Of a DNA stretch of 40,692 nucleotides, positions 12,626 through 35,901 are shown piece by piece (the first letter of the stretch is position 1; every line of letters begins with the position of its first letter). Made by a program: the position numbers and the translations under genes. The notes below the pieces were generated by a model. That model ran no database searches, was not told the origin of the DNA, and saw nothing but the letters and a program-made list of their open reading frames with translations. Source of the DNA: Acidimicrobiaceae bacterium (GTDB lineage: Bacteria > Actinomycetota > Acidimicrobiia > Acidimicrobiales > Bog-793); NCBI GenBank assembly GCA_027306925.1, contig DAHUXW010000072.1, forward strand, positions 1-40,692, written 5' to 3'.

Positions 12626-13050
12626 CCGTACTTCAAAGGTGGATTGTGGCGCTCATGTTCTGCCCACTTGCCGCTCGGGTGCATCGGGATGGTGAAACGT
12701 GGCCTAGTTCTACTTGGGCTCTCAAACGCTTGACGTTGTGACAGGTTTCAAGCAGCAGCTCCAAGGTGCGCGTTGATGAAGGTGAGGGGGATCTGGATCA
12801 AACATCGCCGATCGTGCACCTTAATTACGCTTTCCAGTGATAGCCCTGGGAAGCGGCGGCGGACCAGATTGGCCACGCCTCGATTGGCGTCACCAAGAGT
12901 GAATTGCTTAGGTGAGAACTAGCCTCCCCTTGATTTGAATTAACGAAAAATGTACAATTCGCAGTCGATCGGCCAACGCCTCTATGACGGACTCTAGCAA
13001 CGCTTCGACCGGTCACGAAATGCAGCCATGAGCCGCGGGTCGACAAGGGG

Positions 13051-14730
13051 ATGGTCGTGCGAATATTGGTGGAGAAGTATCCGTCTGGTAGCAGTGTTCG
13101 GTTACGATTATCGGTCTTCGCCCTCGCCGTGCTCGCTGTGATGTTGGCATTCACTACCGTCTCCACCAAGTCCGCGACTGCTTCGGCGAAGAACGCCAAT
13201 TTGGATGGCACATGGAAAGTGGTCGCCGGGGGCTCGACTGGCTTCCTCGTTATTTCCGGTGAGAACGTTAATACCGGTTCCTTCGGCGGCGAGATTGAGG
13301 GAGGAAGTTCGAGGAGCCCGTTGAAAATCGTGGCTGGCCGAGTGTCGGGTAATCAGTTTTCATTGACGTGTGAGATCGCGGGGACTGTCGTCGGCGAGCA
13401 TGGCGCTCAATTCGACTACGGCGGTACCGTGAACGGCAATGACATGAGTATCAAAGAGACTGGACTTCGCGTTTGGCACAACGGACATCCCGTCGATGCG
13501 ACGTACAAGAATCCGGGTCCCTGGCCCGGCACACGTGAGTCCAAGGGTCCAGCCGTATCGAGTGTCACACCGGCCGCGGGCCTCATAGCGGGTGGCACCA
13601 ACATCGCCATCTCGGGCTCGGGGTTCTTGAAAGCTGATGGCGTCCACTTTCGAATGTCCGACGGCAAGTTGATCAGCGTCGCATCCTTCAGTGTCGCGAG
13701 TGATTCACTGATTAACGCGGTTCTCCCGAATATCGAGAATCAGGCGGATTTCAAACTGAACCTGTTCCCCTCGGACGTCATCGTATCGGTGGGGACCAAA
13801 GATTCTCCGATATCGACGCATGACGCATTCACCTTTGAGCGACTCACCGTCACTGGATTGAGTATTCACACTGGTCTTCCCGATGGTGGCACTGATGTGA
13901 AAGTGAAGGGAAGCGGATTTATCGGCGTCACGAAGGTTGAATTTAGGCCCGCGCGATTGGTTTCGCTCGATTCGGCTCTGGAAGGAGTGATCGTTCGAGT
14001 CGAGAGTCCCACCGAGCTGTTGGTACAGGTCCCCAAGGGCAAAAATCTAATTTCGCCGGGATTGACTTCCTATTTGACCAACGTCGTGGTGTCGGTAGGT
14101 TCGCTAGATAGTGCCGTCACCAAGGCTGACCAGTATTCCTATGAATTCTTGCTGCTGACCAAGGTGTCGCCGTCGAGCGGCCCCTTTACGGGCGGCAATG
14201 AAATTCTGCTATCAGGAAGCGACTTCCCTCAAGTCTCAAACGTCTACTTTCTCTACGACCCCAACAAAGCGGGTGTGAACGCCCGTTACACCCTGGTGAG
14301 CCCCAATCGAATTCGAGTTCTCGTGCCAGATATGTCTGGCTTCGCACCGCCAGGGATTCATAGTCTCAAGGTAGACATCATCGTGACGGCTCTAGGTACT
14401 TCAACGAAGGCCCATCCGACCGATCAATACATATTGGCTAATCTTGAGGTTCGTTCCCTCTCACCGAGCACTGGTCCCGCCGGAGGCACGACGAGAGTCA
14501 CCCTGAGTGGCTCGGGTCTCACCGGGGCGACGGCCGTGACCCTGAGTAATGGCACGCAGTCATTCAAGGTCACCCCGGTCGTCTCGTCGGACACCTCGCT
14601 CACCTTCACCACGCCCTCGCTCGCCAAGCTCAAGAGCGTCACCGCGCTGGGCTTTCACGTCACCGTGTCGGTGGGGAGCGTGACGAGCAGTACGGGCAAG
14701 AGTCCACTCTTCACCTATTTGAAGAAATAG
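13051..14730 (+). CDS. Secreted protein with four IPT/TIG-like domains
   Basis: Signal-peptide-like N-terminus (RLRLSVFALAVLAVMLAFTTVSTKSATASA) and four repeats: VSSVTPAAGLIAGGTNIAISGSGFL, VTGLSIHTGLPDGGTDVKVKGSGFI, LTKVSPSSGPFTGGNEILLSGSDFP, VRSLSPSTGPAGGTTRVTLSGSGLT. Lower GC than surroundings. Confidence 0.85.
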   Translation: MVVRILVEKYPSGSSVRLRLSVFALAVLAVMLAFTTVSTKSATASAKNANLDGTWKVVAGGSTGFLVISGENVNTGSFGGEIEGGSSRSPLKIVAGRVSGNQFSLTCEIAGTVVGEHGAQFDYGGTVNGNDMSIKETGLRVWHNGHPVDATYKNPGPWPGTRESKGPAVSSVTPAAGLIAGGTNIAISGSGFLKADGVHFRMSDGKLISVASFSVASDSLINAVLPNIENQADFKLNLFPSDVIVSVGTKDSPISTHDAFTFERLTVTGLSIHTGLPDGGTDVKVKGSGFIGVTKVEFRPARLVSLDSALEGVIVRVESPTELLVQVPKGKNLISPGLTSYLTNVVVSVGSLDSAVTKADQYSYEFLLLTKVSPSSGPFTGGNEILLSGSDFPQVSNVYFLYDPNKAGVNARYTLVSPNRIRVLVPDMSGFAPPGIHSLKVDIIVTALGTSTKAHPTDQYILANLEVRSLSPSTGPAGGTTRVTLSGSGLTGATAVTLSNGTQSFKVTPVVSSDTSLTFTTPSLAKLKSVTALGFHVTVSVGSVTSSTGKSPLFTYLKK

Positions 14731-19969: not shown

Positions 19970-21007
19970 ATGAAGACCGACGTCGCTTCGGCCCGGGCGC
20001 TCGCATCGGCGATGCTCCGGGCGGCCGGGATGGACGCGCAGCCCGCGGCACGGACCGCCTGGGCGCTCGCGTCCGCCGAGTCGTGGGGGCGCGCGTCGCA
20101 CGGGTTGCTCCGACTCCCGTACTACCTGGAGCGCTTCTCGGCGGGAGGCTCCGACCCGCGGGCGGTTCTCCGGCTCGTCCGCTCGACGGCCGTGACCGCC
20201 GTGCTCGACGGCGGCAACGGGCTCGGCCACCACCACGTCTTCGAGGCAGCGACGAAGGCGAGCGCCATGGCCCGCGAGCACGGTCTCGCAGCGGTCGCCG
20301 TCGCGAACTCGGGCCACTGCGGCGTGCTCGGCCTGTACGTCGAGCCCATGCTCGACGCGGGGCTGGTCGGCATCGTGCTCTCCACGGGACCCGCGGTGAT
20401 GCCGCCCCCGGGAGGCTCGAGCGCGGTCGTCTCGACGAGCCCGATCGCAGCGGGTATCCCGATGCGCCCGCACGCCGCGGTCGTCGACATGGCCATGAGC
20501 GCGGTCGCCCGCGGCAGGATCGCCGCGAGTGCGGCCGCCGGCGAGGAGATCCCCACCGGCTGGGCGTTCGACGCCGACGGGGTCACGACGACCGACCCGC
20601 GCGAGGCCCTCGCGGGCCTGCTCGCCCCGTTCGGCGGTGCGAAGGGCTTCGCGCTCGCGCTGGTCGTCGAGTCGCTCACCGCGGGGATCGTCGGGCCCAG
20701 CCTCGCGACCGAGATCGCGGACCCGCTCGACGGCTCGGCGATCGCGGCGCCACAACGGATCGCGCATCTCGTGCTGGCGCTCGACCCGGCGTGCCTCGAC
20801 GCGGACGGCGCCTCCGGCGACCGGCTCGAGCGCCTGGCCGCGTCGGTCGCCGCGGCAGGCGGGCGCGTTCCAGGGGCGCGGAACCGCCACACGTCCGAGA
20901 TCGCGGACGACGACGAGCTCACGATTCCCGACCGGCTCGCGTCGAGTCTCGTGGCGCTCGCGGCCAGCCTCGGTGTCGATCCTCCCGGGAGCTTCGCGGA
21001 CCGCTGA
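19970..21007 (+). CDS. Malate/L-lactate dehydrogenase (Ldh) family oxidoreductase; candidate (R)-sulfolactate dehydrogenase (ComC-like)
   Basis: Ldh2-type motifs SWGRASHGLLRLPYYLER, NGLGHHHVFEA, AVANSGHCGVLGLYVEPM, GAKGFALALVVESLT; adjacent to suyAB-like genes. Substrate is inference. Confidence 0.85.
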   Translation: MKTDVASARALASAMLRAAGMDAQPAARTAWALASAESWGRASHGLLRLPYYLERFSAGGSDPRAVLRLVRSTAVTAVLDGGNGLGHHHVFEAATKASAMAREHGLAAVAVANSGHCGVLGLYVEPMLDAGLVGIVLSTGPAVMPPPGGSSAVVSTSPIAAGIPMRPHAAVVDMAMSAVARGRIAASAAAGEEIPTGWAFDADGVTTTDPREALAGLLAPFGGAKGFALALVVESLTAGIVGPSLATEIADPLDGSAIAAPQRIAHLVLALDPACLDADGASGDRLERLAASVAAAGGRVPGARNRHTSEIADDDELTIPDRLASSLVALAASLGVDPPGSFADR

Positions 21008-21102
21008 CCGCGCGGCCCCGGCTGCGGCGGACGAGCGCGGGCGCGCCCGTGGCCGTCCCGTGCGCACCGGCACGCCGGCCGTAGGCGGGGGCTCGCGGGA
21101 TC

Positions 21103-21131
21103 TTGACGAGCTGACGGGCCCCAGGTAGCCT
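21103..21131 (+). promoter_or_regulatory. Putative sigma70-type promoter of the suyA-like gene
   Basis: TTGACG (21103-21108), 17-nt spacer, TAGCCT (21126-21131). Confidence 0.5.
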
Positions 21132-21136
21132 CCCAC

Positions 21137-21156
21137 TGGAAAGAGGTCAGAGGTCT
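21137..21156. promoter_or_regulatory. Shared operator-like element upstream of suyA-like gene
   Basis: TGGAAAGAGGTCAGAGGTCT; first 15 nt identical to the element at 29456. Confidence 0.55.
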
Positions 21157-21180
21157 GTGAGAGCGATTGCGGAGGCGACT

Positions 21181-21498
21181 GTGAGCGAAGCGACCGAGGG
21201 ATCGGGCGGCGGCCTCGCCGTCCTCGTCCACAACGAAGGCGACGACGTAGGCGTCGCGATCACCGACCTCATGCCCGGGGATGTCGTCGCCGGATGGCTC
21301 GACTCGGGCAGGCGTCAGACGATCGTCGTGAGCGAGGTCATCCCGCTCGGCCACAAGGTGTCGCTCGTTGACCTCGCCGAGGGCGCCGACGTCAACGAGT
21401 ACACGGTCCGGATCGCCGTCACGCGGGCGCCGATCGCTCGTGGCCACCACGTCCACACCCACAACGTAAGGAGCGCGAGATGGCAGCAGAGCGCCTGA
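21181..21498 (+). CDS. UxaA-family small subunit (SAF domain), SuyA-like (sulfolactate sulfo-lyase alpha)
   Basis: FLAVLVHNEGDDVGVAITDLMPGD-like SAF segment (GLAVLVHNEGDDVGVAITDLMPGDVV...IPLGHKVSLVDLAEG); GTG at 21181 has GGAGG 5 nt upstream. The ORF could open at 21157. Confidence 0.75.
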   Translation: MSEATEGSGGGLAVLVHNEGDDVGVAITDLMPGDVVAGWLDSGRRQTIVVSEVIPLGHKVSLVDLAEGADVNEYTVRIAVTRAPIARGHHVHTHNVRSARWQQSA

Positions 21499-22637
21499 CC
21501 GGTTATCGGCGAGCGGACGGCCGCGTCGGCATCCGCAACCACGTCGTCGTCCTCCCGGTCGACGACCTGTCGAACGCGGCCGCCGAGGGCATCGCCCGCC
21601 TCGTGCCGGGCGTGCTCGCCCTCCCCCACGCGTACGGCCGGCTGCAGTTCGGTGCGGACCTCGAGCTCACGTTCTCGACGCTCATCGGCACCGGTACGAA
21701 CCCGAACGTCGCCGCAGTCGTCGTCGTCGGCATCGAGCCGGCGTGGACCGCCCGCATCGCGGACGCGATCGAGGCGAGCGGCAAGCCGGTCGCACGGCTC
21801 TCGATCGAACGGCACGGAGACTTCGCGACGATCGCCGAGGGCGCCCGCCAGGCGGCCCGCATGCTGCAGGACGCGAGCGCGATCGAGCGCGTCGAGGTCC
21901 GCCGCGAGGAGGTCATGGTCTCGATCAAGTGCGGCGAGTCGGACACGACGAGCGGGCTCGGCTCGTGCCCGACGACGTCGGTGCTCGTCGACCGGCACGT
22001 CGACGGCGGCGGCACCGTGCTGTTCGGCGAGACGAGCGAGCTCACCGGTGGCGAGCACATCATCGCGGAGCGCTGCGTCGACGAGCACGTCCGCAAGCGG
22101 TTCACGGACTTCTACGACAGCTACATCGCGATGATCGAGCGGACCGGGGCCAACCTGCTGGGCTCGCAGCCCACCGAGGGCAACATCCGCGGCGGTCTGT
22201 CGACCATCGAGGAGAAGGCGATGGGCAACATCGCGAAGACCGGCACGGTGCCGGTCGTCGACGCGCTGGAGCCCGCCGAGCGGCCGACCCGGGCGGGGCT
22301 CAACTTCATGGACACGTCGTGCGCGGCCGCCGAGGCCATCACGCTCATGGCGGCGGCGGGCGCGGTGATCCACATCTTCCCGACTGGACAGGGCAACGTC
22401 ATCGGGAACCCGATCGAGCCGGTGATCAAGCTCCCGGCGAACCCGGTGACCGCGGCCACGATGTCGGAGCACATCGACCTCGATGTCTCGGCGATCCTCA
22501 CCGGCGAGATGACGCTCGCGGCCGCAGGCGACCTGCTCGATGATCTCGTCGAGCGTACGATCTGCGGGCGGCTCACCGCGGCCGAAGTGCTCGGGCACCG
22601 CGAGTACGTCCTCACGAAGCTCTACCAGAGCGCATAG
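21480..22637 (+). CDS. UxaA-family large subunit, SuyB-like (sulfolactate sulfo-lyase beta)
   Basis: GYRRADGRVGIRNHVVVLPVDDLSNAAAEGIA...LPHAYGRLQFGADLEL...KCGESDTTSGLGSCPT...SQPTEGNIRGGLSTIEEKAMGNI...FPTGQGNVIGNPIEPVIKL...EVLGHREYVLTKLYQSA; recalls SuyB more than altronate/galactarate dehydratases. Confidence 0.75.
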   Translation: MAAERLTGYRRADGRVGIRNHVVVLPVDDLSNAAAEGIARLVPGVLALPHAYGRLQFGADLELTFSTLIGTGTNPNVAAVVVVGIEPAWTARIADAIEASGKPVARLSIERHGDFATIAEGARQAARMLQDASAIERVEVRREEVMVSIKCGESDTTSGLGSCPTTSVLVDRHVDGGGTVLFGETSELTGGEHIIAERCVDEHVRKRFTDFYDSYIAMIERTGANLLGSQPTEGNIRGGLSTIEEKAMGNIAKTGTVPVVDALEPAERPTRAGLNFMDTSCAAAEAITLMAAAGAVIHIFPTGQGNVIGNPIEPVIKLPANPVTAATMSEHIDLDVSAILTGEMTLAAAGDLLDDLVERTICGRLTAAEVLGHREYVLTKLYQSA

Positions 22638-22641
22638 GGAA

Positions 22642-22657
22642 TCCGGCGCGCGCCGGA
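22642..22657. terminator. Perfect palindrome after suyB-like gene (possible attenuator/terminator)
   Basis: TCCGGCGCGCGCCGGA, 16 bp, 4 nt after the stop; no loop or T-tract, so weak. Confidence 0.3.
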
Positions 22658-22765
22658 CGACCGCGTACCGTGGATGCGGTCGAATCACTGTAAATCTACC
22701 TGCAAAGTATGTTGCATTGAAAGTGTCCGGACACGTCGTCCGGGTTACACGAGGGGGGAGCGCAG

Positions 22766-23830
22766 TTGAACAGCAAACGGGAATCGAAGGCGCGTTTCAC
22801 ACGGGTGCGCGCGGCGGCAGCCGGGCTCGCCGTCGCGTCCGTCGCGGTCGGCGGGATCACCGCGGCGTCGGGGGGAGCGTCCGGAAGCGTGCGCCACGCG
22901 TCCGGGCCCTCGTGGGCCGACGTGAACGTCGGGATCGCGCTGTCGCCGCCGAAGGTCATCTTCATGGCGCCGTACGTAGCGCAGGCCCAGGGCTACTTCG
23001 CGAAGGAGCACCTGCACGTCCACTTCATCAGCATGCCGAACGGACTGCAGACCGAGCTCGGGACGACCTCGGGCACGATCAACTTCGGTCTCAGCTCCGC
23101 GACCGACGCGATCCAGTCCGCCGCCGCGGGCGCGCCGATCCACGCGGTCGCGTCCTACGGGACGACGCTCGACACGGTCTGCGTCGCCGCGCCGGGCATC
23201 AAGAGCGCGAAGCAGCTCATCGGGCAGCCGGTCGGGTCGACCGGGACGGACGGGTTCTCGGAGACGACGCTCGCCGCCTGCCTCTCGCCGTCCGGCGTGA
23301 CGATCAACCAGACGAAGCCGATCACCATGACGCGCTCGGAGTTCGTCCCGGCGCTGGAGACGGGGCGGATCAAGGCTGCGGTCTTCCACGCGGACGACGC
23401 GTACGTCATCCTGCACGCCCTGAAGGGCGCGACGGTCCTCGACCGTCAGTACCAGACGGTGCCCAACTGGTGGTACGGCGGGATCACGGTGCTCGACAGC
23501 TACGCACGTCACCACGTCCAGGTCACGGAGCGCTTCCTCACCGCGCTGACACTTGCGAACCGGTGGATGAACAACACGAATAACACCGCGAAGCTCATCG
23601 ACCTCGGCGTGAAGACGACCCAGGAGGACCGGGGTGCCGTGACGTACGCGGTGCACTTCCTCCAGCAGGCCAAGACGTGGCCGAACGGGCTCGGGCTCTC
23701 GCAGAGCTCGGAGTACTTCACGGCGAAGAAGCTGAAGACGCTGAAGGAGATCGACCGGATCCCCTCGTACTCGCAGGTCGTCGACGAGACGTACATGAAG
23801 GCCGTGATCAAGAAGCTCGGCAACGGCTGA
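22766..23830 (+). CDS. ABC transporter substrate-binding protein, NMT1/SsuA/TauA-like
   Basis: Signal peptide, then NVGIALSPPKVIFMAPYVAQAQGYFAKEHLHVHFISMPNGLQTELGTTSGTINFGLSSATDAI; TTG start with GGGGGGAG RBS. Confidence 0.88.
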   Translation: MNSKRESKARFTRVRAAAAGLAVASVAVGGITAASGGASGSVRHASGPSWADVNVGIALSPPKVIFMAPYVAQAQGYFAKEHLHVHFISMPNGLQTELGTTSGTINFGLSSATDAIQSAAAGAPIHAVASYGTTLDTVCVAAPGIKSAKQLIGQPVGSTGTDGFSETTLAACLSPSGVTINQTKPITMTRSEFVPALETGRIKAAVFHADDAYVILHALKGATVLDRQYQTVPNWWYGGITVLDSYARHHVQVTERFLTALTLANRWMNNTNNTAKLIDLGVKTTQEDRGAVTYAVHFLQQAKTWPNGLGLSQSSEYFTAKKLKTLKEIDRIPSYSQVVDETYMKAVIKKLGNG

Positions 23831-23871
23831 GCGGCTGAGCCGACCAGACCGAGAAGGACAGGAACCCACAC

Positions 23872-24651
23872 GTGACCACGAGACCGAGTAGCCGCTTCGA
23901 CGAGCTGACCGACCCGGACATCCAGGCGGCTCTCGCCGAGCGGCCACTCGTTCTCGTGCCGTGCGGGAGCACCGAGCAGCACGGCCCGCACCTTCCGACG
24001 GGGACGGACTACTTCGCGAGCCTCGCGGTCTGCGACCGTGTCGCCCGCGAGCTCGGTGGGCTCGTGCTGCCCGGGATGCAGTTCGGCGTCACGCCGATCC
24101 ACATGGGCTTCACCGGTACCGTGTCGCTCTCGGCGGAGACGTTCCAGCAGGTGCTTCTCGACATGGTGACCTCCTTGGCCTCGCACGGGGTCAAGGAGGT
24201 CGCCTTCGTCAACTGGCACGAGGGGAACATCGCGGCGATCGCCACGGTCGCAAGTCGCCTTACCCAGGAACAGGGTGTGAACGTCGTGGTCGCGCACGCG
24301 TGCTACGTCGCCGAGGAGCTCTACGGAGACGAGCTCGGCGGGCTGACTCACGGCGGCGCGATCGAGGCCGCGGCGGTTCTCGGGTGGCGCCCGGAGCTCG
24401 TGCACTACGACCGGATCGACCCGTCGGCGCACTCGCCCGGTGAACGCGCCGCGGACCACGCGCGCCGCGGGCGTGCGTTCCAGACGGTTCTGCGCGACAT
24501 CAGGGAGATCAGCGACAGCGGGTGGTACGGCTCCTCGGAGACGTTGAGCGCGGACCGGGGCGCCGAGATCGTCGACGCCGTCGCCGTGGTCGTGGCGACC
24601 GAGCTGAACGCCCGCTTCGAGCGCCTCGCGCGAATGCGCGGCGGTCGCTGA
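23872..24651 (+). CDS. Creatininase (creatinine amidohydrolase) family protein
   Basis: LVLVPCGSTEQHGPHLPTGTDYFAS, GMQFGVTPIHMGFTGTVSLS, VNWHEGNIAAI, THGGAIEAA: conserved metal-site motifs. Confidence 0.9.
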   Translation: MTTRPSSRFDELTDPDIQAALAERPLVLVPCGSTEQHGPHLPTGTDYFASLAVCDRVARELGGLVLPGMQFGVTPIHMGFTGTVSLSAETFQQVLLDMVTSLASHGVKEVAFVNWHEGNIAAIATVASRLTQEQGVNVVVAHACYVAEELYGDELGGLTHGGAIEAAAVLGWRPELVHYDRIDPSAHSPGERAADHARRGRAFQTVLRDIREISDSGWYGSSETLSADRGAEIVDAVAVVVATELNARFERLARMRGGR

Positions 24652-24653
24652 CG

Positions 24654-25016
24654 ATGGCGAGCGTGCTGCGCGTCGAGGACGCCCGGCGGCTGGAGCTGCG
24701 CGGGCGCACGGCGCTCGAGCTTCTCGGTGGCGGCAAAGGGCCGGACATGACCGTGCGGATCGTCGAGGTCGCGCCGGAGGCACCCGGCGCCGAGGCGCGG
24801 CCATTGCACGTGCACGACGGCGTCGGGGAGTTCATCTGGCTCCTCGCCGGGTCGGGCACGCTCCACACCGGAGCGGGGACGCTCGCCGTCGAGGCGGGCG
24901 AAGGCGTCTACGTCCCGGCCGGCGAGCACCACAAGGTCTCCCCTGCGGGCGAGGTGCCGCTCCGGCTGTTGTGCGTGTTCGCCACGGGCGACATCGCGTC
25001 GCGGACCCGCGAGTAG
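24654..25016 (+). CDS. Cupin-domain protein
   Basis: RPLHVHDGVGEFIWLLAGSGTLHTGAGTLAVEAGEGVYVPAGEHHKV. Confidence 0.85.
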   Translation: MASVLRVEDARRLELRGRTALELLGGGKGPDMTVRIVEVAPEAPGAEARPLHVHDGVGEFIWLLAGSGTLHTGAGTLAVEAGEGVYVPAGEHHKVSPAGEVPLRLLCVFATGDIASRTRE

Positions 25017-25018
25017 CG

Positions 25019-26008
25019 GTGGGGCCCACCGACCGCCCCGGGCGCGTGCTGTGCCTGCGCCCGGAGGCGGACTTCGCTGCGCTCGGCGTCGAGGTGCCCG
25101 CGGCGCTCGACGTGCAGTTCGCGGCCGACGAGCGGTCGATCGACGGCATCGAGCCGGACGTGCGCTGCCTGGTGCTGCCGTCGGCCGGCGCAGCGCTCGG
25201 CGCCGAGCTGTTCGCCGGTGCACGCGGGCTGACGCTCGTCCAGTACACGGGCGCCGGCACCGACCGGATCGCCGACGAGATCGTCGACGAGCTCGGCTGC
25301 GCGGTCTGCAACGTTCCCGGAGCGAGCGCGAAGGACGTCGCCGCGTACGTCCTGCTCACCTCGGGGGCACTTCTTCGACGGATCGGGGCGGGCGACGCGC
25401 TCGTGCGCTCTGGACGCTACGCAGAGGCGCGCGCGGCGCTCGCGCCCGCGCACGTCCGGGGCTTTCGGGGCCTGCGGGTCGGGATCGTCGGGTTCGGCGC
25501 GATCGGCGTCGAGACCGCGCTCGCGTTCGACGCCCTCGGCGCAGAGCCTCGCTGGTACGACCCGGTCGCCGCGGACCGGCCCGAGATGCAGCGCTTCGCC
25601 CGGTCGGAGCTCGACGCCTTGCTGCGATGGGCCGAGGTGCTGACCGTCCACGTGCCGCTCACGCCGGCGACGAGGGGGCTCGTCGGTCGCTCCGAGCTCG
25701 CGCTCCTCCCGGACGGCGCGGTCGTCGTCAACGCCGCCCGGGGCGGGATCGTGGACGAGGTGGCCCTCGTGGACGCGCTCGAGTCGGGACAGCTCGGCGG
25801 CGCCGCGCTCGACGTCTACGAGTCCGAGCCACTGCCCGCGACGTCGCCGCTGCTCGACGCCGCCTCGCGGCTCGGGACGCGACTCGTGCTGACGCCGCAC
25901 ATCGCGGGTGTCACGCCCGAGGCGTCGCGCGAGCTGTTCGTGCGTGCGTGGTCGAACGTCCTCGCCGTCGTGGGCGAGGCGCGCGAGCCCGCGCACCGGG
26001 TGCGCTGA
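25019..26008 (+). CDS. D-isomer-specific 2-hydroxyacid dehydrogenase (candidate SlcC-like)
   Basis: YTGAGTDRI, VCNVPGASAKDVAAYVLL, GLRVGIVGFGAIGVETA, NAARGGIVDEVALVDALESGQLGGAALDVYESEPLP, TPHIAGVTPEA. Confidence 0.9.
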   Translation: MGPTDRPGRVLCLRPEADFAALGVEVPAALDVQFAADERSIDGIEPDVRCLVLPSAGAALGAELFAGARGLTLVQYTGAGTDRIADEIVDELGCAVCNVPGASAKDVAAYVLLTSGALLRRIGAGDALVRSGRYAEARAALAPAHVRGFRGLRVGIVGFGAIGVETALAFDALGAEPRWYDPVAADRPEMQRFARSELDALLRWAEVLTVHVPLTPATRGLVGRSELALLPDGAVVVNAARGGIVDEVALVDALESGQLGGAALDVYESEPLPATSPLLDAASRLGTRLVLTPHIAGVTPEASRELFVRAWSNVLAVVGEAREPAHRVR

Positions 26009-26056
26009 CGTGTGCCGCGCGAAGGGCGCGACGCCGGCCGACACGGAGGTTGCCTC

Positions 26057-27343
26057 ATGACGCCGCACATAGACCACATGAATCTGCTGGCGACCGCGCG
26101 CCTCGGCGACGGCGTCGGCGGCGGCGAGGGCCTCGCGATGCACGTCGCCGCCGACGGCTCGCGCACCTTGTTCGTCGCGTCGGAGCACGCACCGTGCGAC
26201 TTCGTGGCGGTCGACGTGAGCGACCCGCGAGCACCCTCGGTCGTGTTCCGTCAGGACCTCCCGGGCGCGGGGATCCGGTCGAACAACCTCGCGATCCACG
26301 ACGACCTGCTCGCGGTCACGCGCCAGGTGTCGCAGAAGGGCGCGCCGCCGGGCGGTGTCGAGCTCTTCGACATCTCGCAGCCGACCGCGCCGCGCCCGAT
26401 CGGCTATTTCGACGCTTCGGGCGGCGAGTCGCTCGGCACGCACTTCGTCTGGCTCGGCGCGGACGGCTACGCGTACCTCGCGAGCGGCGCGTCTGACTTC
26501 ACGCCACGGGACGCGCGCGACCGCTTCATGTTCCGGATCCTCGACGTCTCGTCGCCGACGCGTCCCGTCGAGGCGGGACGTTGGTGGTTGCCCGGCATCG
26601 CGGTCTCCGACGTCGACGCGGCACCCGAACGTCCCTCCGAGCGGCTCGCCGCGGCCCACGGAGCGGAGATCACCGCGGAGCAGCGCGCCGCTCGTCGCTT
26701 CGAGTCCGGCGGCTCCTGCTCGTGGGACTTCGGCTTTCGCGTCCACAACGTCACGGTGCTCCCGGAACGCCCGGACCGGGCCTACCTCGCCCACACGTCC
26801 GCGGGTGCGTACATCTTCGACATCTCGGACCGTTCGCGACCGCATCCCGTCGGCCACCTCGACTACGCGACGCCGCTTCCCGGAGCCGCGCACACGTTCG
26901 TGCCACTCGGCGCGAGCGGGTTCGGCCTGCTCTCGGACGAGACTCTCGAGGAGGGCGCCGCGGACTACCCCCAGAACGTCTGGGTCGTGGACGCGCGGCT
27001 CGAGTCGCGCCCGGTGATCGTCGGGTCCCTCGAGCTCCCGTGGCCGTCCGACGTGCCCGCGACCGGGAGGTTCGGGGCGCACAACCTCCACGAGTACCCG
27101 CCCGGCCAGGGCGCGCTCCGGTCCTTCGGGCTCGCGGTGGCCGCGATGTTCGGGCTCGGGGTCGCGGTCTTCGACGTCGGCGATCCCCTGCGGGCGCGTG
27201 CGGTCGCGCACTTCTCGCCCGGTCCCGAGGACGACGGGCCGGGAACCGGTCAGTTGAACGACGTGTTCCTGGACGACCGTGGCGTGCTCTACGCGCTCGA
27301 CCGTCGCAGCGACTACTGCTTCGTGCTCGAGCTCGACCTGTGA
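26057..27343 (+). CDS. LVIVD-repeat / beta-propeller-like protein of unknown function
   Basis: Recurring blocks: FVAVDVSDPRAPSVV, VELFDISQPTAPRPIGYF, FRILDVSSPTRPVEAGRW, YIFDISDRSRPHPVGHL, VAVFDVGDPLRARAVAHF; ACGGAGGT RBS. Confidence 0.75.
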   Translation: MTPHIDHMNLLATARLGDGVGGGEGLAMHVAADGSRTLFVASEHAPCDFVAVDVSDPRAPSVVFRQDLPGAGIRSNNLAIHDDLLAVTRQVSQKGAPPGGVELFDISQPTAPRPIGYFDASGGESLGTHFVWLGADGYAYLASGASDFTPRDARDRFMFRILDVSSPTRPVEAGRWWLPGIAVSDVDAAPERPSERLAAAHGAEITAEQRAARRFESGGSCSWDFGFRVHNVTVLPERPDRAYLAHTSAGAYIFDISDRSRPHPVGHLDYATPLPGAAHTFVPLGASGFGLLSDETLEEGAADYPQNVWVVDARLESRPVIVGSLELPWPSDVPATGRFGAHNLHEYPPGQGALRSFGLAVAAMFGLGVAVFDVGDPLRARAVAHFSPGPEDDGPGTGQLNDVFLDDRGVLYALDRRSDYCFVLELDL

Positions 27344-27422
27344 GGGCGTGCGCCCGGCGAGAGCTCGGCTGCGCGTGCTGCCCGGGAACGGGCCCGGCGG
27401 GAGAGGACAAGGAGAGGTGACG

Positions 27423-28505
27423 ATGGGCGACGAAGGCGGCAAGGTGCGGCTCGCGGCGGTCGGGCTCGGCCGGTGGGGTCGGGTCATGGCGGCTGCCTAC
27501 CACCGGAGCGACGTGATCGAGCTGCGCAGCTGCTTCAGCCGGAACCCCGAGCGACGCGGCCGGTTCGCGGCGGACTTCGGGTGCGACGAGGTGTCTTCGC
27601 TGGAGGAGCTGTGCGCGCGCGACGACATCGAGGGTCTGGTCGTCACCGTGCCGAACGACCAGCACGCGCCAGTCATCGAGGCGGCCGCGCGGGCCGGAAA
27701 GCACGTGTACGTGGAGAAGCCGGTCGCGGTCACGACGGTGGACCTCCGGCGCATCGGGGACGCGGTCCGCGGCTCCGGCGTCGTGTTCGCGTGCGGGCAC
27801 AGCGCCCGTCGCCTCGCCGGCGTGCGGGAGATGCGCCGCATGCTCGACAGCGGCGAGATCGGCACGCCGTCGATGGTCGAAGCCGTGTTCTCGAACGAGC
27901 GCGGACTCGAGCTGAAGGACGGCGACTGGCGCGGTGACCCCGCGCAGTGCCCGGGTGGACCGCTGACCCAGCTCGGGATCCACCAGATCGACAACTTGAA
28001 CTTCCTGTTCGGGACTCCGGCGCGCGTGAGCGCGGTCGGGCGCCCGGGTGCGGTCGCGGTCGCCAACACGATGGTCGCCGCCGCGCTCCTCGAGTTCGAG
28101 GGCGGGGTCATCGGCTATCTCGGGGCGGACTGGCTGACGCCGGGCGCGTTCACGATGGACCTCTACTGCACGGCGGCGCGACTGCGCTACGAGCTCGACT
28201 TCAGCTGGTGGAGCAACTCCGCGGACACCGACGCGCACACGCGGCTCGTGAAGGTCGAGATCGGCGCGAACAGCTCCGATCCCGACGACCGCGTGCTTCG
28301 CGAGAGCGTTCTCGCGCTCGCCCCCCGCGACCATCTCCGCGAGGAGGTCGAGGAGTACGCCCGGGCGATCCGCGGACAGGACGAGGTCGAGGTCGGGCTC
28401 GACGTCTCGGTGTCCAACGTCGCCGTGGTGCTCGCCGCTGCCCGTGCGATCGGCGAGCGACGCTCGGTCGAGGTCGCGGAGGTGCTCGCGGAGCTCGGCG
28501 CCTAG
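27423..28505 (+). CDS. Gfo/Idh/MocA-family oxidoreductase
   Basis: VRLAAVGLGRWGRVMAAAYHRS, LVVTVPNDQHAPVIEAAARAGKHVYVEKPVAVT, GHSARRL, GGPLTQLGIHQIDNLNFLFG. Confidence 0.9.
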   Translation: MGDEGGKVRLAAVGLGRWGRVMAAAYHRSDVIELRSCFSRNPERRGRFAADFGCDEVSSLEELCARDDIEGLVVTVPNDQHAPVIEAAARAGKHVYVEKPVAVTTVDLRRIGDAVRGSGVVFACGHSARRLAGVREMRRMLDSGEIGTPSMVEAVFSNERGLELKDGDWRGDPAQCPGGPLTQLGIHQIDNLNFLFGTPARVSAVGRPGAVAVANTMVAAALLEFEGGVIGYLGADWLTPGAFTMDLYCTAARLRYELDFSWWSNSADTDAHTRLVKVEIGANSSDPDDRVLRESVLALAPRDHLREEVEEYARAIRGQDEVEVGLDVSVSNVAVVLAAARAIGERRSVEVAEVLAELGA

Positions 28506-29297
28506 TCAGCCGAGCGCGACGGTCGGCGCGGTGTCCCCGTCGAGCCCGATCTCGGGCGCGACGGGGACACCGGCACCGTCGAGCTCGATCGACTCGCGCC
28601 GGACGCGCTCGAACGCGGCCCGCCGCGCGCCGTCGATGTGCACGAACGCGGCGTCGCGGGCGGCGTCCGCGTCGCCGGTGCTGATCGCCTCGTAGAGCGC
28701 AAGGTGGTCGTGCCGGGACTGCTCGAGGCGTCCGGGCACCGACAGGGTCGTCTCCATCCCCGAGGCGAGCATCTCCTGTAGGACGCCGACCATCTGCGAG
28801 AGGAAGCGGTTCTTCGCCATCTCGACGATGCGGAGGTGGAAGTCGGCGTCGAGAGCTCCGACGCGCTCGAGGTCGATCGGCGCGGCCCGCGCGGCGTCCT
28901 CGACGGCGAGGACCTCGGCGAGCGACTGCAGCTCCTCGTCCGTCGCGGCGCCAGCGGCCCAACCCGCGGCCGAGACCTCGAGCACCTCGCGCATCGCGAA
29001 CAGCTCCCCGAGCGTGAGCTCGAGGTTCGAGAGTCGCGCCCGCATCGCGCTCGCGGCATCCTGGCGGACGAACACCCCCTGGCCGTGCCGCACGACGAGC
29101 CGGCCGCGCGCTTCCAGGGTCTTTACGGCCTCGCGCAGCGCCGGACGGCTGACGCCGAGCATGCTCGCCATCTCGCGCTCGGCGGGCAGCCGCTCGCCCT
29201 CGGCGAGCCGCTCGCTCGCGATGAGCTCCTCGATGCGCGCGACGATGCGGTCCGTGAGGTTACCGGCCTGCTTTATCGGACTCCACAGAGGGTCCAC
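28506..29297 (-). CDS. GntR-family regulator, FadR/FCD subfamily
   Basis: DRIVARIEELIASERLAEGERLPAEREMASMLGVSRPALREAVKTLEARGRLVVRHGQGVFV (wHTH) and all-helical FCD C-terminus (DADFHLRIVEMAKNRFL, HLALYEAISTGDADAARDAAFVHI). Confidence 0.92.
   Translation of the reverse strand: MDPLWSPIKQAGNLTDRIVARIEELIASERLAEGERLPAEREMASMLGVSRPALREAVKTLEARGRLVVRHGQGVFVRQDAASAMRARLSNLELTLGELFAMREVLEVSAAGWAAGAATDEELQSLAEVLAVEDAARAAPIDLERVGALDADFHLRIVEMAKNRFLSQMVGVLQEMLASGMETTLSVPGRLEQSRHDHLALYEAISTGDADAARDAAFVHIDGARRAAFERVRRESIELDGAGVPVAPEIGLDGDTAPTVALG
28530..28571. terminator. Strong 42-nt hairpin between convergent Gfo/Idh and GntR genes
   Basis: GGTGTCCCCGTCG-A-GCCCGA-TC-TCGGGC-G-CGACGGGGACACC: 13 + 6 perfect pairs with a single mismatch; 25 nt past the Gfo/Idh stop and inside the gntR 3' end. 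Confidence 0.65.
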
Positions 29298-29375
29298 CGC
29301 GACGTCCTTCCGCGCCGTCCGCCGGCGCCCCCACGAGACGCCCAGCTCACGGTCTGTCCGAGCATAGACGCCCAA

Positions 29376-29490: not shown

Positions 29491-30327
29491 ATGACGGCAA
29501 TGCGGGCGGCTTCCGACCGGGGAGCCCCGGCGGAACGGGCGCAGGCGGCTGCGGCCGCCGGCCCGGGGCGAGGCGAGATCCGCTGCAGCGGCCTGTACAA
29601 GTGGTACGGGCAGACCGCAGTCCTCTCGGGCCTCGACCTCACGGTCGCGAACGGCGAGTTCGTCTGCGTCGTCGGCCCCTCGGGCTGTGGGAAGACGACG
29701 CTGCTCAGGATGATGGCAGGGCTCGCCGAGTACGACCACGGCACGATCACGATCGGGGGCGAGAAGGTCACGGCCCCGCTCGCGCAGGTCGCGGTCGTTT
29801 TCCAGCACTTCGGGCTGTTTCCCTGGAAGACCGTCTACAACAACGTCGCGCTCCCGCTTCGTGCCGCCGGTCTCGACAAGGCCGAGGTGCGCCGGCGAGT
29901 CGCCGAGGCCATCGCGCTCGTCGGGCTCGAGGGCGTCGACGATCGCTACCCCGCACAGCTCTCGGGCGGGATGAAACAGCGCGTCGGGCTCGCCCGCACG
30001 CTCGCCTTGCGGCCCGAGGTCATCCTGCTCGACGAGCCGTTCGCCGCGGTCGACGCGCAGACGCGCGAGATCCTCCAGGAGGAGCTCCTCGGGCTGTGGA
30101 GCCGTCACCGCCAGACGGCGCTGTTCATCACGCACAGCATCGACGAGGCGATCACGCTCGCCGACCGGGTCGTCGTGATGGGCACGAAGCCCGGACGGGT
30201 CGTCGACGACATCGTCGTGCCGATCCCGCGGCCCCGCACCGTCGGCTCGGTGCGGCGCCACGAGTCCTACGCGCCGCTCCGCGAGCGCATCTGGGAGCAG
30301 TTGCGGGCCTCCGGCTCGCCGACGTGA
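29491..30327 (+). CDS. ABC transporter ATP-binding protein (SsuB/TauB-like)
   Basis: [17 protein letters not shown] (Walker A), [48 protein letters not shown]. Confidence 0.93.
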
Positions 30328-30340
30328 GAGGTTCGCGAAC

Positions 30341-31249
30341 ATGTCTCTGACCCGAAACGACCCGCCCGTCGCCGGCGTCGCGGACGGCGCACGCACCGCG
30401 TCCGCGAGCCTCGCGGCGTCCGACGCCGAGGCGATCGGCCGCGAGGTCATCGCAGCCCGCCGGCGCCGCTCGAAGCGTGACCGGCGCAAGTTCCTCGCGG
30501 TCCGGCTCGTGTCGCTGGCCGTCGTCTTCGGGGCGTGGCAGCTGTACGGGATGCACACGATCGCGATCCTGTTCGCGCCGATCACGACGGTCGTGCACTC
30601 GGGGTACAACCTGTTCGCGCACGCCCAGCTCGGGTCCCAGCTCGGCTACAGCATGTGGACGTTCGCGATCGGCTACCTGATCGGTGTCGCGGTGGGCATC
30701 GCGGTCGGGATGCTCATGGGCGCGTACCGCGTGGTCGAGGCCGCGGTCTCGCTCTACGTGTTCGCGCTGTACGCGACGCCGATGGTCGCGCTCGTGCCGA
30801 TCATGACCTTGTGGATCGGCTTCGACGCGACCGCGCAGATCGTGATCATCGCGCTCTTCGTAACGTGGCCGATGATCGTCACGGTGTTCCACGGCGTCCG
30901 CCAGATCGACGCCGAGCTCATGGAGGTCTCCCGATCGCTCCGCCTGAACAGGCGTCAGACGTGGGTGCACGTGCTGCTCCCCGGGGCCGTCCCGTTCGTC
31001 ATCACCGGTGCGACCCAGGGTGTCGCGATGGGGCTCGTCGGCGTCATCATCGCCGAGCTCCAGACCCAGCTGACCGGGCTCGGCGCGGCCCTCCAGACCG
31101 AGGCCCAGACGTACCACACCGCGGGAGCACTCGCCGTCGTCCTCTTGATCATGGTCCTCGGCGTGACGCTGCGGGCGATCCTCGGGCTGGTCCAGAGGTT
31201 CCTCGTCCCGTGGATGCGCCTCGACCGTGGGGACGGCAAGCGGCGCTGA
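30341..31249 (+). CDS. ABC transporter permease (SsuC/TauC-like)
   Basis: BPD inner-membrane signature region: [47 protein letters not shown]; multiple TM segments. Confidence 0.9.
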
Positions 31250-31283: not shown

Positions 31284-31421
31284 TCGACGGCACTCGTCCG
31301 GCGCTCGGTAAGATCCGCTCGATCCGGCGGAGTCGTGGGCGTTGTGGCGCGTGGGGCGGCTCGTACCCGCGCTGCGCGCTTCGCCGGCGACGACCGTGCG
31401 ACCGGACGCGAAGGAGGACCG

Positions 31422-31919
31422 GTGGAGCTCCGCCTCACGGTGAACGGCGCCCAGGTGTCGGGCGACGTCGAGCCGCGCACGCTCCTCGTGCACCACTTGC
31501 GCACCGCGCTGGGCCTCACCGGCACGAAGGTCGGCTGCGACACGTCGTCGTGCGGGGCGTGCACCGTGCTGCTCGACGGCCGCTCCGTGAAGTCCTGCAC
31601 CGTGCTCGCCGTCCAGGCGGACGGGTGCGAGGTGACGACGATCGAGGGGCTCGCGGACGGCGACGAGCTCCACCCGCTGCAGGCGGCGTTCCACGACCAC
31701 CATGCGCTCCAGTGCGGGTACTGCACGCCCGGCATGATCATGGCGGCGGTCTCGCTTCTTCGCGAGCGCCGCCCGCTCGACGACGCCGCGGTCCGCCGGG
31801 GTCTCGAGGGCAACCTCTGCCGGTGCACGGGGTACCGGGGCATCGTCGAGGCGGTGCTCGCGGTCGCGGCGAGCGAGGACGCGCGTCCCGGCGCTGCCGG
31901 CGCGGCCGTCGCCCGATGA
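31422..31919 (+). CDS. (2Fe-2S)-binding subunit of molybdenum hydroxylase (CoxS-like)
   Basis: [53 protein letters not shown]. Confidence 0.93.
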
Positions 31920-32731
31920 TCCCCGCGCCGTTCGCGTACGAGCGCGCCGCGTCGGTGGAGGACGCCGTCGCGCGGCTCGCGCGGCACGGCGAGGACGCGA
32001 AGGTCCTCGCGGGCGGCCACTCGCTGATCCCGCTGCTTCGCCTGCGCTTCGCCCGGCCCTCGGTGCTCGTCGACATCGGCCGGGTTCCGGGGCTCGACGG
32101 CGTCCGCGACGACGGCGAGCTCTCGATCGGTGCGATGACGCGCTACTGCGACGTCGAGGCCTCGCCGCTGGTCGCCGAGCACGCGCCGCTGCTCGCCGCC
32201 GCCGCCGCCGAGGTCGGCGACGAGCAGGTGCGGCACCGGGGGACGATCGGCGGGTCGATCTGCCACGGCGACCCGGCGTCGGACGTGGCCGCGGCGCTGC
32301 TCGCGCTCGGTGCGACGGTCGTCGTGCGCGGCCCGGGCGGCGAGCGGCGCATCGCGCTGGAGGAGTTCTTCGTCGGGTTCCTCGAGACCGCGATCGCTCG
32401 CGACGAGATCCTCGTCGAGGTGCGCGTCCCCGTGACGAGCGCGCCGTGGGCGTTCGAGAAGTTCAACCGTCGTGCGCAGGACTGGGCGATCGTCGGGTGC
32501 GCGGTGCTCGCCGGCTCGGAGCCGCGGGTCGCGCTCGTGAACATGGCGACGACTCCGCGACGCGCCCCGCTCGTGGAGGAAGCCCTTGCACGCGGCGCGT
32601 CCGCGCGGGAAGCGGCCGATCTCGCGTCCGAGGGGACCGAGCCCCCGTCCGACGCGAACGCGTCCGCGCAGTTCCGCCGCCATCTCGCGAGCGTGCTCGT
32701 GCGCCGGGCCCTCGAGCGGGCGTCGCGATGA
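31916..32731 (+). CDS. FAD-binding subunit of molybdenum hydroxylase (CoxM-like)
   Basis: [58 protein letters not shown] overlap with the upstream gene. Confidence 0.92.
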
Positions 32732-32813
32732 CCGTGCACGGCGCCGCGCCTGCGGTGGCGACGATCGAGGTGCGACCGCGCACGCGCGTCGGGCGCGAAG
32801 GGAGCCGGTCCCG

Positions 32814-33551
32814 ATGGAGCTGAACCACGAGTTCACGGTCGACATGCCGGTGGAGCGCGCGTGGGCGCTGCTCGTCGACGTCGAGCGCATCGCGCCGTGC
32901 ATGCCGGGAGCCACGCTCGAGTCGGCCGAGGACGGGCGGTACTCGGGCACCGTGAAGGTGAAGGTCGGTCCCGTCACGACGCAGTACCGCGGCACCGTGT
33001 CCTTCGTCGAGCAGGACGAGGGCGCGCGTCGCGCGGTGCTCCGTGCCGAGGGCCGGGAGACGAAGGGGCAGGGCAACGCGACTGCCACGATCACCGCGGC
33101 CTTCGCACCGGACGGCCATGCGACGACGGTCACGTTGGCGACGGACCTCGTCGTGACCGGGCGCGTCGCGCAGTTCGGCCGCGGCGTCATCGCGGAGGTG
33201 AGCGCCCGCCTGCTCCAGCAGTTCGTCGAGTGCCTCGCCGCGACCTTCGCCGGCGCGCCGCCCACGGAGACCTCCTCCGACGTGCCGCCCGCCGCAGGCG
33301 CGACCGACGTGCCACCCACCGGGAGCCCGGACGACGAGCGGCCCACCGGGAGCCCGGCCGACGTGCCGCCCGGTGGGCAGGCGCGGGTGGGCGGGACCGC
33401 ACCCGCGACGGGTGACGCGGTCGACCTGCTCGCCATCGCACGGTCGATGCTCTCGACGCGCGCCAAGATCGTCGCGGTGGCGGTCCTCGTCGCGGTGGCC
33501 GGGTGCCTCGTCGCACGTCTGCGGCACCCGAGCCGCCGGGCGCGGCGATGA
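32814..33551 (+). CDS. CoxG-like SRPBCC protein with C-terminal membrane anchor
   Basis: [64 protein letters not shown]; Pro-rich linker and [20 protein letters not shown]. Confidence 0.88.
33315..33357. repeat. Short direct repeat in CoxG linker
   Basis: CCCACCGGGAGCCCGG at 33315-33330 and 33342-33357 (27-nt period), encoding [17 protein letters not shown]. Confidence 0.7.
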
Positions 33552-33591: not shown

Positions 33592-35901
33592 GTGCCGTTC
33601 ATCGGGCGCTCGATGACTCGCCGGGAGGACCGCGCGCTCGTGCGCGGCGAGGCGCGCTTCACCGACGACCTCGGTGCCGCGGACGACGTGCCCATCGTCG
33701 ACGCCGTGCACATGGTCGTCGTGCGGAGCACGGTCGCGCACGCGCGGATCGTCGGCGTGGATGCGACCGAGGCGCTCGCCCTGCCCGGGACCGTGGCGGT
33801 CGTCACCGGTGCGGACCTCGCGGGCACGGTCTCGCCGTACCCGGTCGTGAGCCGGGACGGCGCGACGCTCGCGGACGCGCCCGTCGAAGTCGTCGCGACC
33901 GGGACCGTGCGCTACGTGGGCGAGCCGGTGGCAGCGGTCCTCGCCCGGAGCCGAGCCACGGCGGAGGACGCGGCCGAGCTCGTCGTCGTCGACTACGAGC
34001 CCCTCGAGCCGGTCGCGAGCGTCGACGACGCGCGCCGGCGTGTGGCCGTCGTGCACGACGCAGCGCCGGACAACGTGCTCGTGCGTTGGTCGCACCGATC
34101 GGGAGACGTCGACGGCGCCTTTCGGGACGCGCGGCGCGTCGCCCGCTGCCACCTCCACATCCCGCGCCTCGTCGCCGCGCCGATCGAGGTGCGCGCGTGC
34201 GTGGCCGCCCACGACGCAGCGGACGACCTCGTCACGCTCTGGGCGTCCGCCCAGGACCCCTGGCGCCAGTCGGCGCAGCTCGCGGCCGTGCTCCGCCGAC
34301 CGGAGGCGTCGATCCGGGTCGTGGTGCCCGAGGTCGGCGGAGCGTTCGGCTCGAAGGGCTCGCTCGTGCCCGAGTACGCGCTCGCCGCGTGGTGCGCGAT
34401 CCACCACCGTGTCGCGGTGCGGTGGTTCGAGGACCGCAGCGAGAACTTCCTCGCCGCGTACCAGGGCCGCGGGATGCAGGCCGACGTCGAGCTCGCGCTC
34501 GGCGACGGCGGGCGCTTCCTCGCGCTGCGCGCGGACATCGCTGCCGACATCGGTGCGTACCTCTACCCGAACACGCCCAACGTCGCGGTCACGACGGCGA
34601 TGCTCATGACCGGCTGCTACGACATCGCCGCGGCAGAGGTGCGCGTCGAGGGCCTCGCGACGACGAAGGTGCCGACCGGGCCGTACCGCGGCGCCGGGCG
34701 CCCGGAGGCGGCGTTCTTCGTCGAGCGGGTCGTCGACGTCGCCGCTCGGGCGACCGGGCTCGACCCTGTCGAGATCAGGCGGCGCAACCTCGTCGCGCCG
34801 GGCGCGTTCCCGCACGACAACGGGCTCGGTCACCGGTACGACTCGGGCAACTACCCGGCCGCGCTCGACGAGGCGTGCCGGCTGCTCGGCTACGACGCGC
34901 TCCGGGCCGAGCAGCGCGACGCCCGGGCGTCGGGTCGCCTGCTCGGCGTCGGGATCGCGAGCTACGTGGAGCGGGCGGCTCCCGGCGGTTGGGAGAGCGC
35001 CGAGGCCCTGCTCGCCCCCGGGGGACGCGTCGTCGTGCGCGTCGGCTCGTCACCGCACGGGCAGGGCCACGAGACGACGTTCGCCCAGGTCGCCGCGGAC
35101 GCACTCGGCGTCGCGCCCGACGCGATCGACGTGCGCCACGGCGACAGCTCGGCCGGTCCGCCGGGCGTCGGGACCTACGGGAGCCGCTCGGTCACGCTCG
35201 GTGGCTCGGCCGTGCTGCAGGCGTGCGAGGGGCTGCTCGCGCGCGCGACGGTCGCCGCCGCCACGCTCTGCGGGGTCGACCCCGCGGACCTCGACTACCG
35301 CGACGGGCGTTGGTCGAGACGGGACCGACCGGACGAGGGCGTCGGCCTCGCGGACGTCGCGGCTGCAGCGCTCGACGCGGGCGCGCCGATGCGCGCTGAC
35401 GCTCGCTTCACGATCGCCTCGCCGGTCTTCTCGTTCGGCACCTACGGCGCGGCGGTCGAGATCGACCCGGAGACGGGTCGGGTCGAGATCCTCCGCATCG
35501 CCGCGGTCGACGACGCCGGCGTGGTCGTCAACCCGTTGCTCGCCGAGGGCCAGGTCGTCGGCTCGTCCGTGCAGGGCGTCGGTGCGTCGCTGTACGAGGA
35601 GGTCGTGCACGACGCGGACGGTCAACCGGTCAGCGGGAGCTTCGTGAGCTACGGGATCCCGAGCGCCCCGGACGTCGCGTTCGAGCTCGAGACAGCGCTC
35701 CTGTGCACGCCGAGCCCGCTGAACCCGCTCGGTGCGAAGGGTATCGGCGAGGCCGGCTCGATCGGGGTCCCCGCCGCGGTCGACAACGCGGTCGTCGACG
35801 CGCTCGCGCCGTTCGGCGTCGAGCACGTCGACCCCCCGTACTCGCCCGAGCGGATCTGGGGCCTGGTCGCGGGCCGCCCGGACGCGCGCGCGGGCGGCTG
35901 A
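33592..35901 (+). CDS. Molybdopterin-binding large subunit of xanthine dehydrogenase/CODH family (form-II CoxL-like)
   Basis: [102 protein letters not shown]. Confidence 0.92.

Follow-up and report, generated by a model that had tools for sequence, protein, structure and literature searches.

The window analysed here, 40,692 nucleotides of contig DAHUXW010000072.1 (positions 1 to 40,692 of the forward strand, assembly GCA_027306925.1) from an Acidimicrobiaceae bacterium, encodes a predicted sulfolactate sulfo-lyase, SuyA and SuyB, within a nine-gene array that also contains an Ldh-family dehydrogenase, a periplasmic binding protein, a creatininase-family protein, a cupin, a D-2-hydroxyacid dehydrogenase, an LVIVD β-propeller and a Gfo/Idh/MocA (Gfo) dehydrogenase. 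On balance, this array is best read as part of a locus for C3-sulfonate catabolism in an uncultured Acidimicrobiales bacterium, in which a module built around the creatininase-family protein would provide SuyAB with sulfolactate or sulfopyruvate made from a precursor. Phylogeny shows the predicted SuyAB pair to be orthologous to sulfolactate sulfo-lyase, and cleavage of sulfolactate by the pair is very probable, being well supported by descent. The extra genes are likely an upstream module supplying SuyAB; their enzymes probably belong to an undescribed route feeding sulfolactate cleavage, because two other phyla have them next to the same genes. The first-pass annotation of this DNA had proposed a sulfolactate or related C3-sulfonate pathway, which stands through the phylogenetic placement of SuyB and of a ComC-type Ldh, and falls in its assignment of the D-2-hydroxyacid dehydrogenase to SlcC.

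The large subunit (21480–22637, + strand; UxaA C-terminal domain 2e-78, second domain 1e-34) is 57% identical to SuyB of Cupriavidus pinatubonensis, whose gene adjoins hpsN and hpsO. In a tree of 51 sequences, it falls within a SuyB clade of 31 rows with 100/100 support that includes C. pinatubonensis, while Escherichia coli UxaA, GarD and other split relatives lie outside. The SuyB-type identity proposed in the first-pass annotation, which hinged on separation from altronate and galactarate dehydratases, is thereby upheld. Four cysteines are conserved in UxaA/GarD enzymes, SuyAB excepted (PMC6336799), and every SuyB row of the alignment, the window included, is down to one of the four: at E. 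coli UxaA Cys132, Cys166 and Cys199 the window SuyB has Leu, Arg and a gap, and Cys264 is retained. The family cysteines are also absent from some split UxaA relatives outside the SuyB clade, and the tree therefore bears the main weight of the assignment. Tree and cysteines together rule out an altronate or galactarate dehydratase at 21480–22637, although the protein shares with UxaA/GarD enzymes the superfamily and the combination of SAF and C-terminal domains. Among the split relatives without these cysteines are L158 (G481:C48) and L044 (a Variovorax plasmid), 36–39% identical, both with Ldh neighbours and, in L044, also a D-2-hydroxyacid dehydrogenase.

The SuyB assignment is accompanied by a separate, adjoining gene for a SAF-domain SuyA (21157–21498, + strand). 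This small subunit has no Pfam match; it matches the SAF domain of an altronate hydrolase (3k3s, 8.5e-11) and is 36% identical to C. pinatubonensis SuyA over 90 residues. Searching plasmids by tblastn with the large subunit returns one group at 56–72% identity, located in sulfonate gene clusters, followed by a gap to at most 43%. The close relative in C. pinatubonensis lies in a cluster hpsN-hpsO-hpsU-hpsP-suyAB, matching the published order hpsRNOUPsuyAB (PMC11382572). Paracoccus relatives neighbour hisD-like (hpsN) genes, a sulfate exporter and a sulfite oxidase, and those of P. aestuarii and P. seriniphilus neighbour a D-2-hydroxyacid dehydrogenase, an Ldh and a sulfate exporter. The nearest SuyB, at 84%, comes from an Acidimicrobiaceae metagenome-assembled genome (MAG) from palsa soil.

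The two dehydrogenases of the array differ in their affinities. The Ldh_2-family protein (19970–21007, + strand; Pfam Ldh_2 2e-82) is nested among Ldh proteins from SuyAB-linked actinobacterial loci, in a clade of 16 rows with 100/100 support. This placement shows it to be ComC-type, as first proposed, and suggests that it acts as a sulfolactate dehydrogenase. Its best NCBIfam match is L-sulfolactate dehydrogenase (NF040650) at 185.6 bits against a curated cut-off of 500, and membership of that curated family is therefore not claimed. The D-2-hydroxyacid dehydrogenase (25019–26008, + strand; 2-Hacid_dh_C 2e-45), which retains the Arg/Glu/His catalytic motifs, groups at 100/100 with proteins from four loci that also have creatininase and Gfo genes (L047, G009, L051 and L122), and lies outside every SuyAB-linked SlcC clade. 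The trees thus rule out SlcC for this gene, placing it in a separate clade found in module loci only, and the racemizing SlcC–ComC pair envisaged in the first-pass annotation is consequently not shown for this locus. In a larger set of loci, the D-2-hydroxyacid dehydrogenases that accompany the creatininase module split into three clades, none within SlcC: the window type with L160, an Actinomycetota type and a Bacillota type. From these trees, the module seems to need a D-2-hydroxyacid dehydrogenase step, recruited more than once.

In gene neighbourhoods, creatininase, cupin, D-2-hydroxyacid dehydrogenase and Gfo genes recur together as a conserved module. Initial annotation was right to set the creatininase, cupin, LVIVD and Gfo proteins outside textbook sulfolactate pathways; they are not stray neighbours, since the same module repeatedly accompanies SuyAB in members of Actinomycetota, Acidobacteriota and Bacillota, in many cases together with an LVIVD propeller and an aldehyde oxidoreductase of the molybdenum or tungsten type. 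Most of 80 SuyB loci from bacterial genomes have SlcC- and ComC-type genes beside SuyAB, and four carry the module genes there: in the window's order in L047, adjoining SuyAB in G009, rearranged and divergent in L051 (all three Actinomycetota), and divergent in L122 (Acidobacteriota), where DctA replaces the ATP-binding cassette (ABC) transporter. Further module loci were found from creatininase or Gfo queries rather than from SuyB. In G716 (Bacillota), a single strand encodes SuyA, SuyB, creatininase, cupin, D-2-hydroxyacid dehydrogenase and an isopropylmalate-synthase-like (IPMS-like HMGL) enzyme, continuing with an aldehyde:ferredoxin oxidoreductase, a flavin adenine dinucleotide (FAD) protein, ferredoxin, tripartite tricarboxylate transporter (TTT) genes, LVIVD, ferredoxin, Gfo, SucC, SucD and GntR. 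In G1470, a single 9.4-kb contig holds SuyB and, no more than about 6 kb away, cupin, Gfo, creatininase and D-2-hydroxyacid dehydrogenase. G1286 has one locus with LVIVD, an amidohydrolase-like gene, SuyZ, SuyA and SuyB and a second with Gfo, creatininase and D-2-hydroxyacid dehydrogenase. SuyB is absent from G1171, where SsuABC-type genes, LVIVD, an FAD oxidoreductase, Gfo, creatininase, D-2-hydroxyacid dehydrogenase and CoxSML genes occupy 18 kb. Because the module also occurs without SuyAB, it is separable from it; it is a real unit that has repeatedly been joined to SuyAB.

Two other arrangements were observed. L193 (G1286:C331, 472–12838), which is actinobacterial, combines hpsN- and hpsO-like genes, an SsuABC-type transporter, SuyA, SuyB, a Gfo protein (36%), a distant creatininase (28%) and an HpcH-like aldolase, and is by its predicted genes a second kind of sulfonate cluster. 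Compact GntR-SuyA-SuyB-SlcC-ComC-SuyZ operons (L059–L061, L063, L066–L068 and L070) belong to small-genome and freshwater-type actinobacteria, including the complete genome IMCC19121.

In the proposed pathway, the substrate imported by the SsuABC-type transporter would be a C3-sulfonate, either free or as part of a larger molecule. This precursor would then be opened and oxidised to sulfopyruvate or sulfolactate by the creatininase-family hydrolase, cupin, Gfo dehydrogenase and propeller hydrolase, with a molybdo-hydroxylase encoded downstream possibly acting as the oxidant of an aldehyde or ring. The module D-2-hydroxyacid dehydrogenase, with ComC where present, would set the configuration, yielding (R)-sulfolactate, from which SuyAB would eliminate sulfite to leave pyruvate. 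Export, oxidation or assimilation of the sulfite would fall to proteins encoded outside the locus; the genome contains two sulfite-oxidase-fold loci, three TauE-type genes and one sulfite/nitrite reductase, all of putative role. Several observations weigh against this pathway. No sulfite exporter or oxidase was found inside the locus, and none of the module enzymes has a known sulfonate substrate. The molybdo-hydroxylase is not seen in L047, whose contig ends soon after the module, and the large subunits of the window and G009 are only 42% identical, so the link of this enzyme to the module is weak. Moreover, six genomes (G175, G299, G1171, G1242, G1512 and G996) carry the module without a SuyB-clade gene, and the module is therefore not tied to sulfonates alone.

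A plain sulfolactate operon, in which SuyAB chemistry is served by ComC (or Gfo) and the module D-2-hydroxyacid dehydrogenase interconverting sulfolactate enantiomers, with creatininase, cupin, LVIVD and molybdo-hydroxylase accessory or unrelated, is unlikely. Two dehydrogenases of opposite type are normal in SuyAB loci, SuyAB has no Ldh neighbour in L051 and L122, which do carry the D-2-hydroxyacid dehydrogenase and Gfo, and the DctA gene preceding the module in L122 also adjoins ordinary SuyAB-SlcC-ComC genes (L030). However, a bare racemase does not explain why creatininase, cupin and Gfo stay associated in three phyla, whether SuyAB is present or not; ComC is, besides, retained in the window and G009. 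The six SuyB-free genomes could instead indicate two adjacent pathways, the module degrading a non-sulfonated acid and joined to SuyAB only by shared uptake or regulation. Bacillota modules beside a tripartite ATP-independent periplasmic (TRAP) transporter, an isopropylmalate-synthase-like enzyme and succinate-CoA-ligase-like genes, and other Actinomycetota modules beside an oligopeptide ABC transporter, an FAD oxidoreductase and hydrolases, agree with such a division, which is nevertheless rather improbable given that SuyAB adjacency persists in three phyla under differing gene orders and that in G716 the creatininase gene immediately follows SuyB in the same orientation. Of 12 genomes selected through creatininase or Gfo alone, 4 also have SuyB-clade genes, compared with 5 of 98 searched relatives from the order (Fisher p 0.008, uncorrected for kinship), a co-occurrence that is only supportive since the two samples differ in taxonomy. 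It is very improbable that SuyAB acts on a different β-substituted 2-hydroxyacid and that the locus does not concern sulfonates, as split UxaA relatives (36–40%) adjoining Ldh, and once a D-2-hydroxyacid dehydrogenase, apart from sulfonate genes (L044, L158) might hint, because the window protein is 57–59% identical to SuyB beside hpsN/hpsO and sulfate-exporter genes and shares the SuyB cysteine signature and the 100/100 clade.

The C3-sulfonate reading with an upstream module gains detail from the individual module proteins. The creatininase-family metallohydrolase (23872–24651, + strand; Pfam creatininase 2e-57) shares the family fold and EQHG metal motif with creatininase, MftE and IolN, but scores far under the three curated cut-offs (114/235, 108/172 and 68/245 bits, respectively), forms its own clade and carries an NWHEGN motif common to the module proteins; EQHG and NWHE do not vary among 11 module members representing three phyla. 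It is followed by a single-domain cupin (24654–25016, + strand; Cupin_2 9e-14). The Gfo dehydrogenase (27423–28505, + strand; Gfo/Idh/MocA 7e-22 and 5e-26) is closest to solved structure 3db2 (E 4e-120), has an EKP motif and is 47–53% identical to its counterparts in the Bacillota loci. A GH188/sulfoquinovosidase identity was rejected for it, the closest structure being 3db2 and its matches including none named sulfoquinovosidase.

The LVIVD β-propeller (26057–27343, + strand; LVIVD 2e-7) is probably a metal-dependent hydrolase, as suggested by profile and model comparisons. Profile comparison matches it to the haloalkylphosphorus hydrolase of Sphingobium TCM1 (5hrm/5ioj, 9e-15), which is also the top fold match (3e-12) of a predicted model built from four sequences only (mean predicted local distance difference test score 69). 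Specifically, His129, His279 and His345 are invariant in nine relatives and align with His258, His389 and His475 of 5ioj, which we take to be metal ligands. The shared propeller and histidines contrast with only about 17% identity and a different gene context. Plasmid-borne relatives of creatininase, Gfo and LVIVD gave gene contexts with no common function, and a search of openly available literature found no mention of creatininase in sulfonate pathways and nothing useful on creatininase with related gene clusters.

All nine genes between 19970 and 28505 are intact open reading frames on the + strand with Pfam, NCBIfam or PDB matches, in agreement with the initial gene list; the remaining member is an NMT1/SsuA-type periplasmic binding protein (22766–23830; Pfam 1e-20, SsuA_fam 2e-12). 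Starts were corrected to about 24654 (cupin), 25019 (D-2-hydroxyacid dehydrogenase), 26057 (LVIVD) and 27423 (Gfo). The SuyA and SuyB genes overlap by 19 bases, and gaps of 2 bases separate creatininase from cupin and cupin from D-2-hydroxyacid dehydrogenase, spacing as in a tight operon; a scan for sigma-70-type promoters gave no result. The nine-gene set is kept in orthologous loci of two related genomes, with most genes at 57–84% identity and LVIVD at only 29% between the window and G009, and the arrangement is therefore not due to chance. The window belongs to a 2.87-Mb MAG whose kinship points to Acidimicrobiales and to an actinobacterium of soil or peat, consistent with the high-GC actinobacterial host first surmised.

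The locus extends beyond 28505 to about 35900. A divergent GntR/FCD (FadR-type) regulator (28506–29375, − strand; FCD 1e-25, GntR 5e-18), of a type that adjoins SuyAB in many loci, is followed on the + strand by an SsuB/TauB-type ABC ATPase (29491–30327; NCBIfam SaoA, nitrate and taurine ATPase matches), conserved in L047, G009 and L051, and an SsuC/TauC-type permease (30341–31249; NCBIfam SaoP 1e-26, SsuC 1e-25). In G009, a second SsuA-like binding protein (L034, 7566–8675), 50% identical to the first, lies 3′ of the permease. In the window, downstream of its permease and also on the + strand, the CoxSML-like form-II molybdo-hydroxylase comprises a [2Fe-2S] subunit (31413–31919; glyceraldehyde dehydrogenase gamma 5e-69), an FAD subunit (31916–32731; beta 1e-74) and a molybdenum-binding large subunit (33598–35901; alpha 1e-183), each under its cut-off, with a CoxG-like protein (32808–33551; assigned by reading the sequence, no NCBIfam match) between them. 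The large subunit carries the form-II motif YRGAGR and no CSFR, which rules out a form I CoxL carbon monoxide dehydrogenase. One oxidation step shared by aerobes and anaerobes could be carried out by the molybdo-hydroxylase here and by the tungsten-type aldehyde oxidoreductase of G716, respectively.

Compared with the SuyAB pathways with SlcC/ComC of Paracoccus and Chromohalobacter and hpsRNOUPsuyAB of C. pinatubonensis JMP134, the window has in common the adjacent SuyA and SuyB, a GntR-type regulator, a ComC-type Ldh, a transporter and the one SuyB clade. It differs in its non-SlcC D-2-hydroxyacid dehydrogenase, its SsuABC-type transporter and the lack of a SuyZ exporter in the locus, and goes beyond them in its creatininase, cupin, Gfo, LVIVD and molybdo-hydroxylase genes. 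In the tandem sulfofucolytic–sulfolactate pathway of Paracoccus wurundjeri, an upstream module supplies sulfolactate to SlcC/ComC/SuyAB, with an ABC transporter (PMC12421959). The window resembles it in its transporter and its proposed upstream supply of sulfolactate, whereas sulfofucose genes of the SfcH, SfcD, SfcF and SfcE types were not seen in the locus.

In the sulfonate branch of the sulfur cycle, sulfolactate serves as a common currency, and few routes leading to it are known. The conservation of a module next to SuyAB in three phyla suggests that sulfolactate has another natural source, among anaerobes as well as uncultured bacteria of soil and peat, and offers candidate functions for four groups of orphan enzymes, one of them the family to which the solved but unassigned structure 3db2 belongs. 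More tentatively, Actinomycetota, Acidobacteriota and Bacillota may share an undescribed organosulfonate pathway in which creatininase, cupin, module D-2-hydroxyacid dehydrogenase, Gfo, propeller metallohydrolase and a molybdenum or tungsten aldehyde oxidoreductase make sulfolactate for SuyAB, SuyAB-free variants treating an unsulfonated analogue.

Elsewhere in the window, guanine-plus-cytosine content falls from about 0.72 overall to 0.58 at 12001–14000, where Rfam gives no match. In the same genome (G000), one 20-kb contig carries a second UxaA-family gene (C65:15–836, L002; 35% to SuyB) and a GhrB-like D-2-hydroxyacid dehydrogenase (C65:19006–19863, L141), a pair that perhaps serves a sugar-acid pathway.

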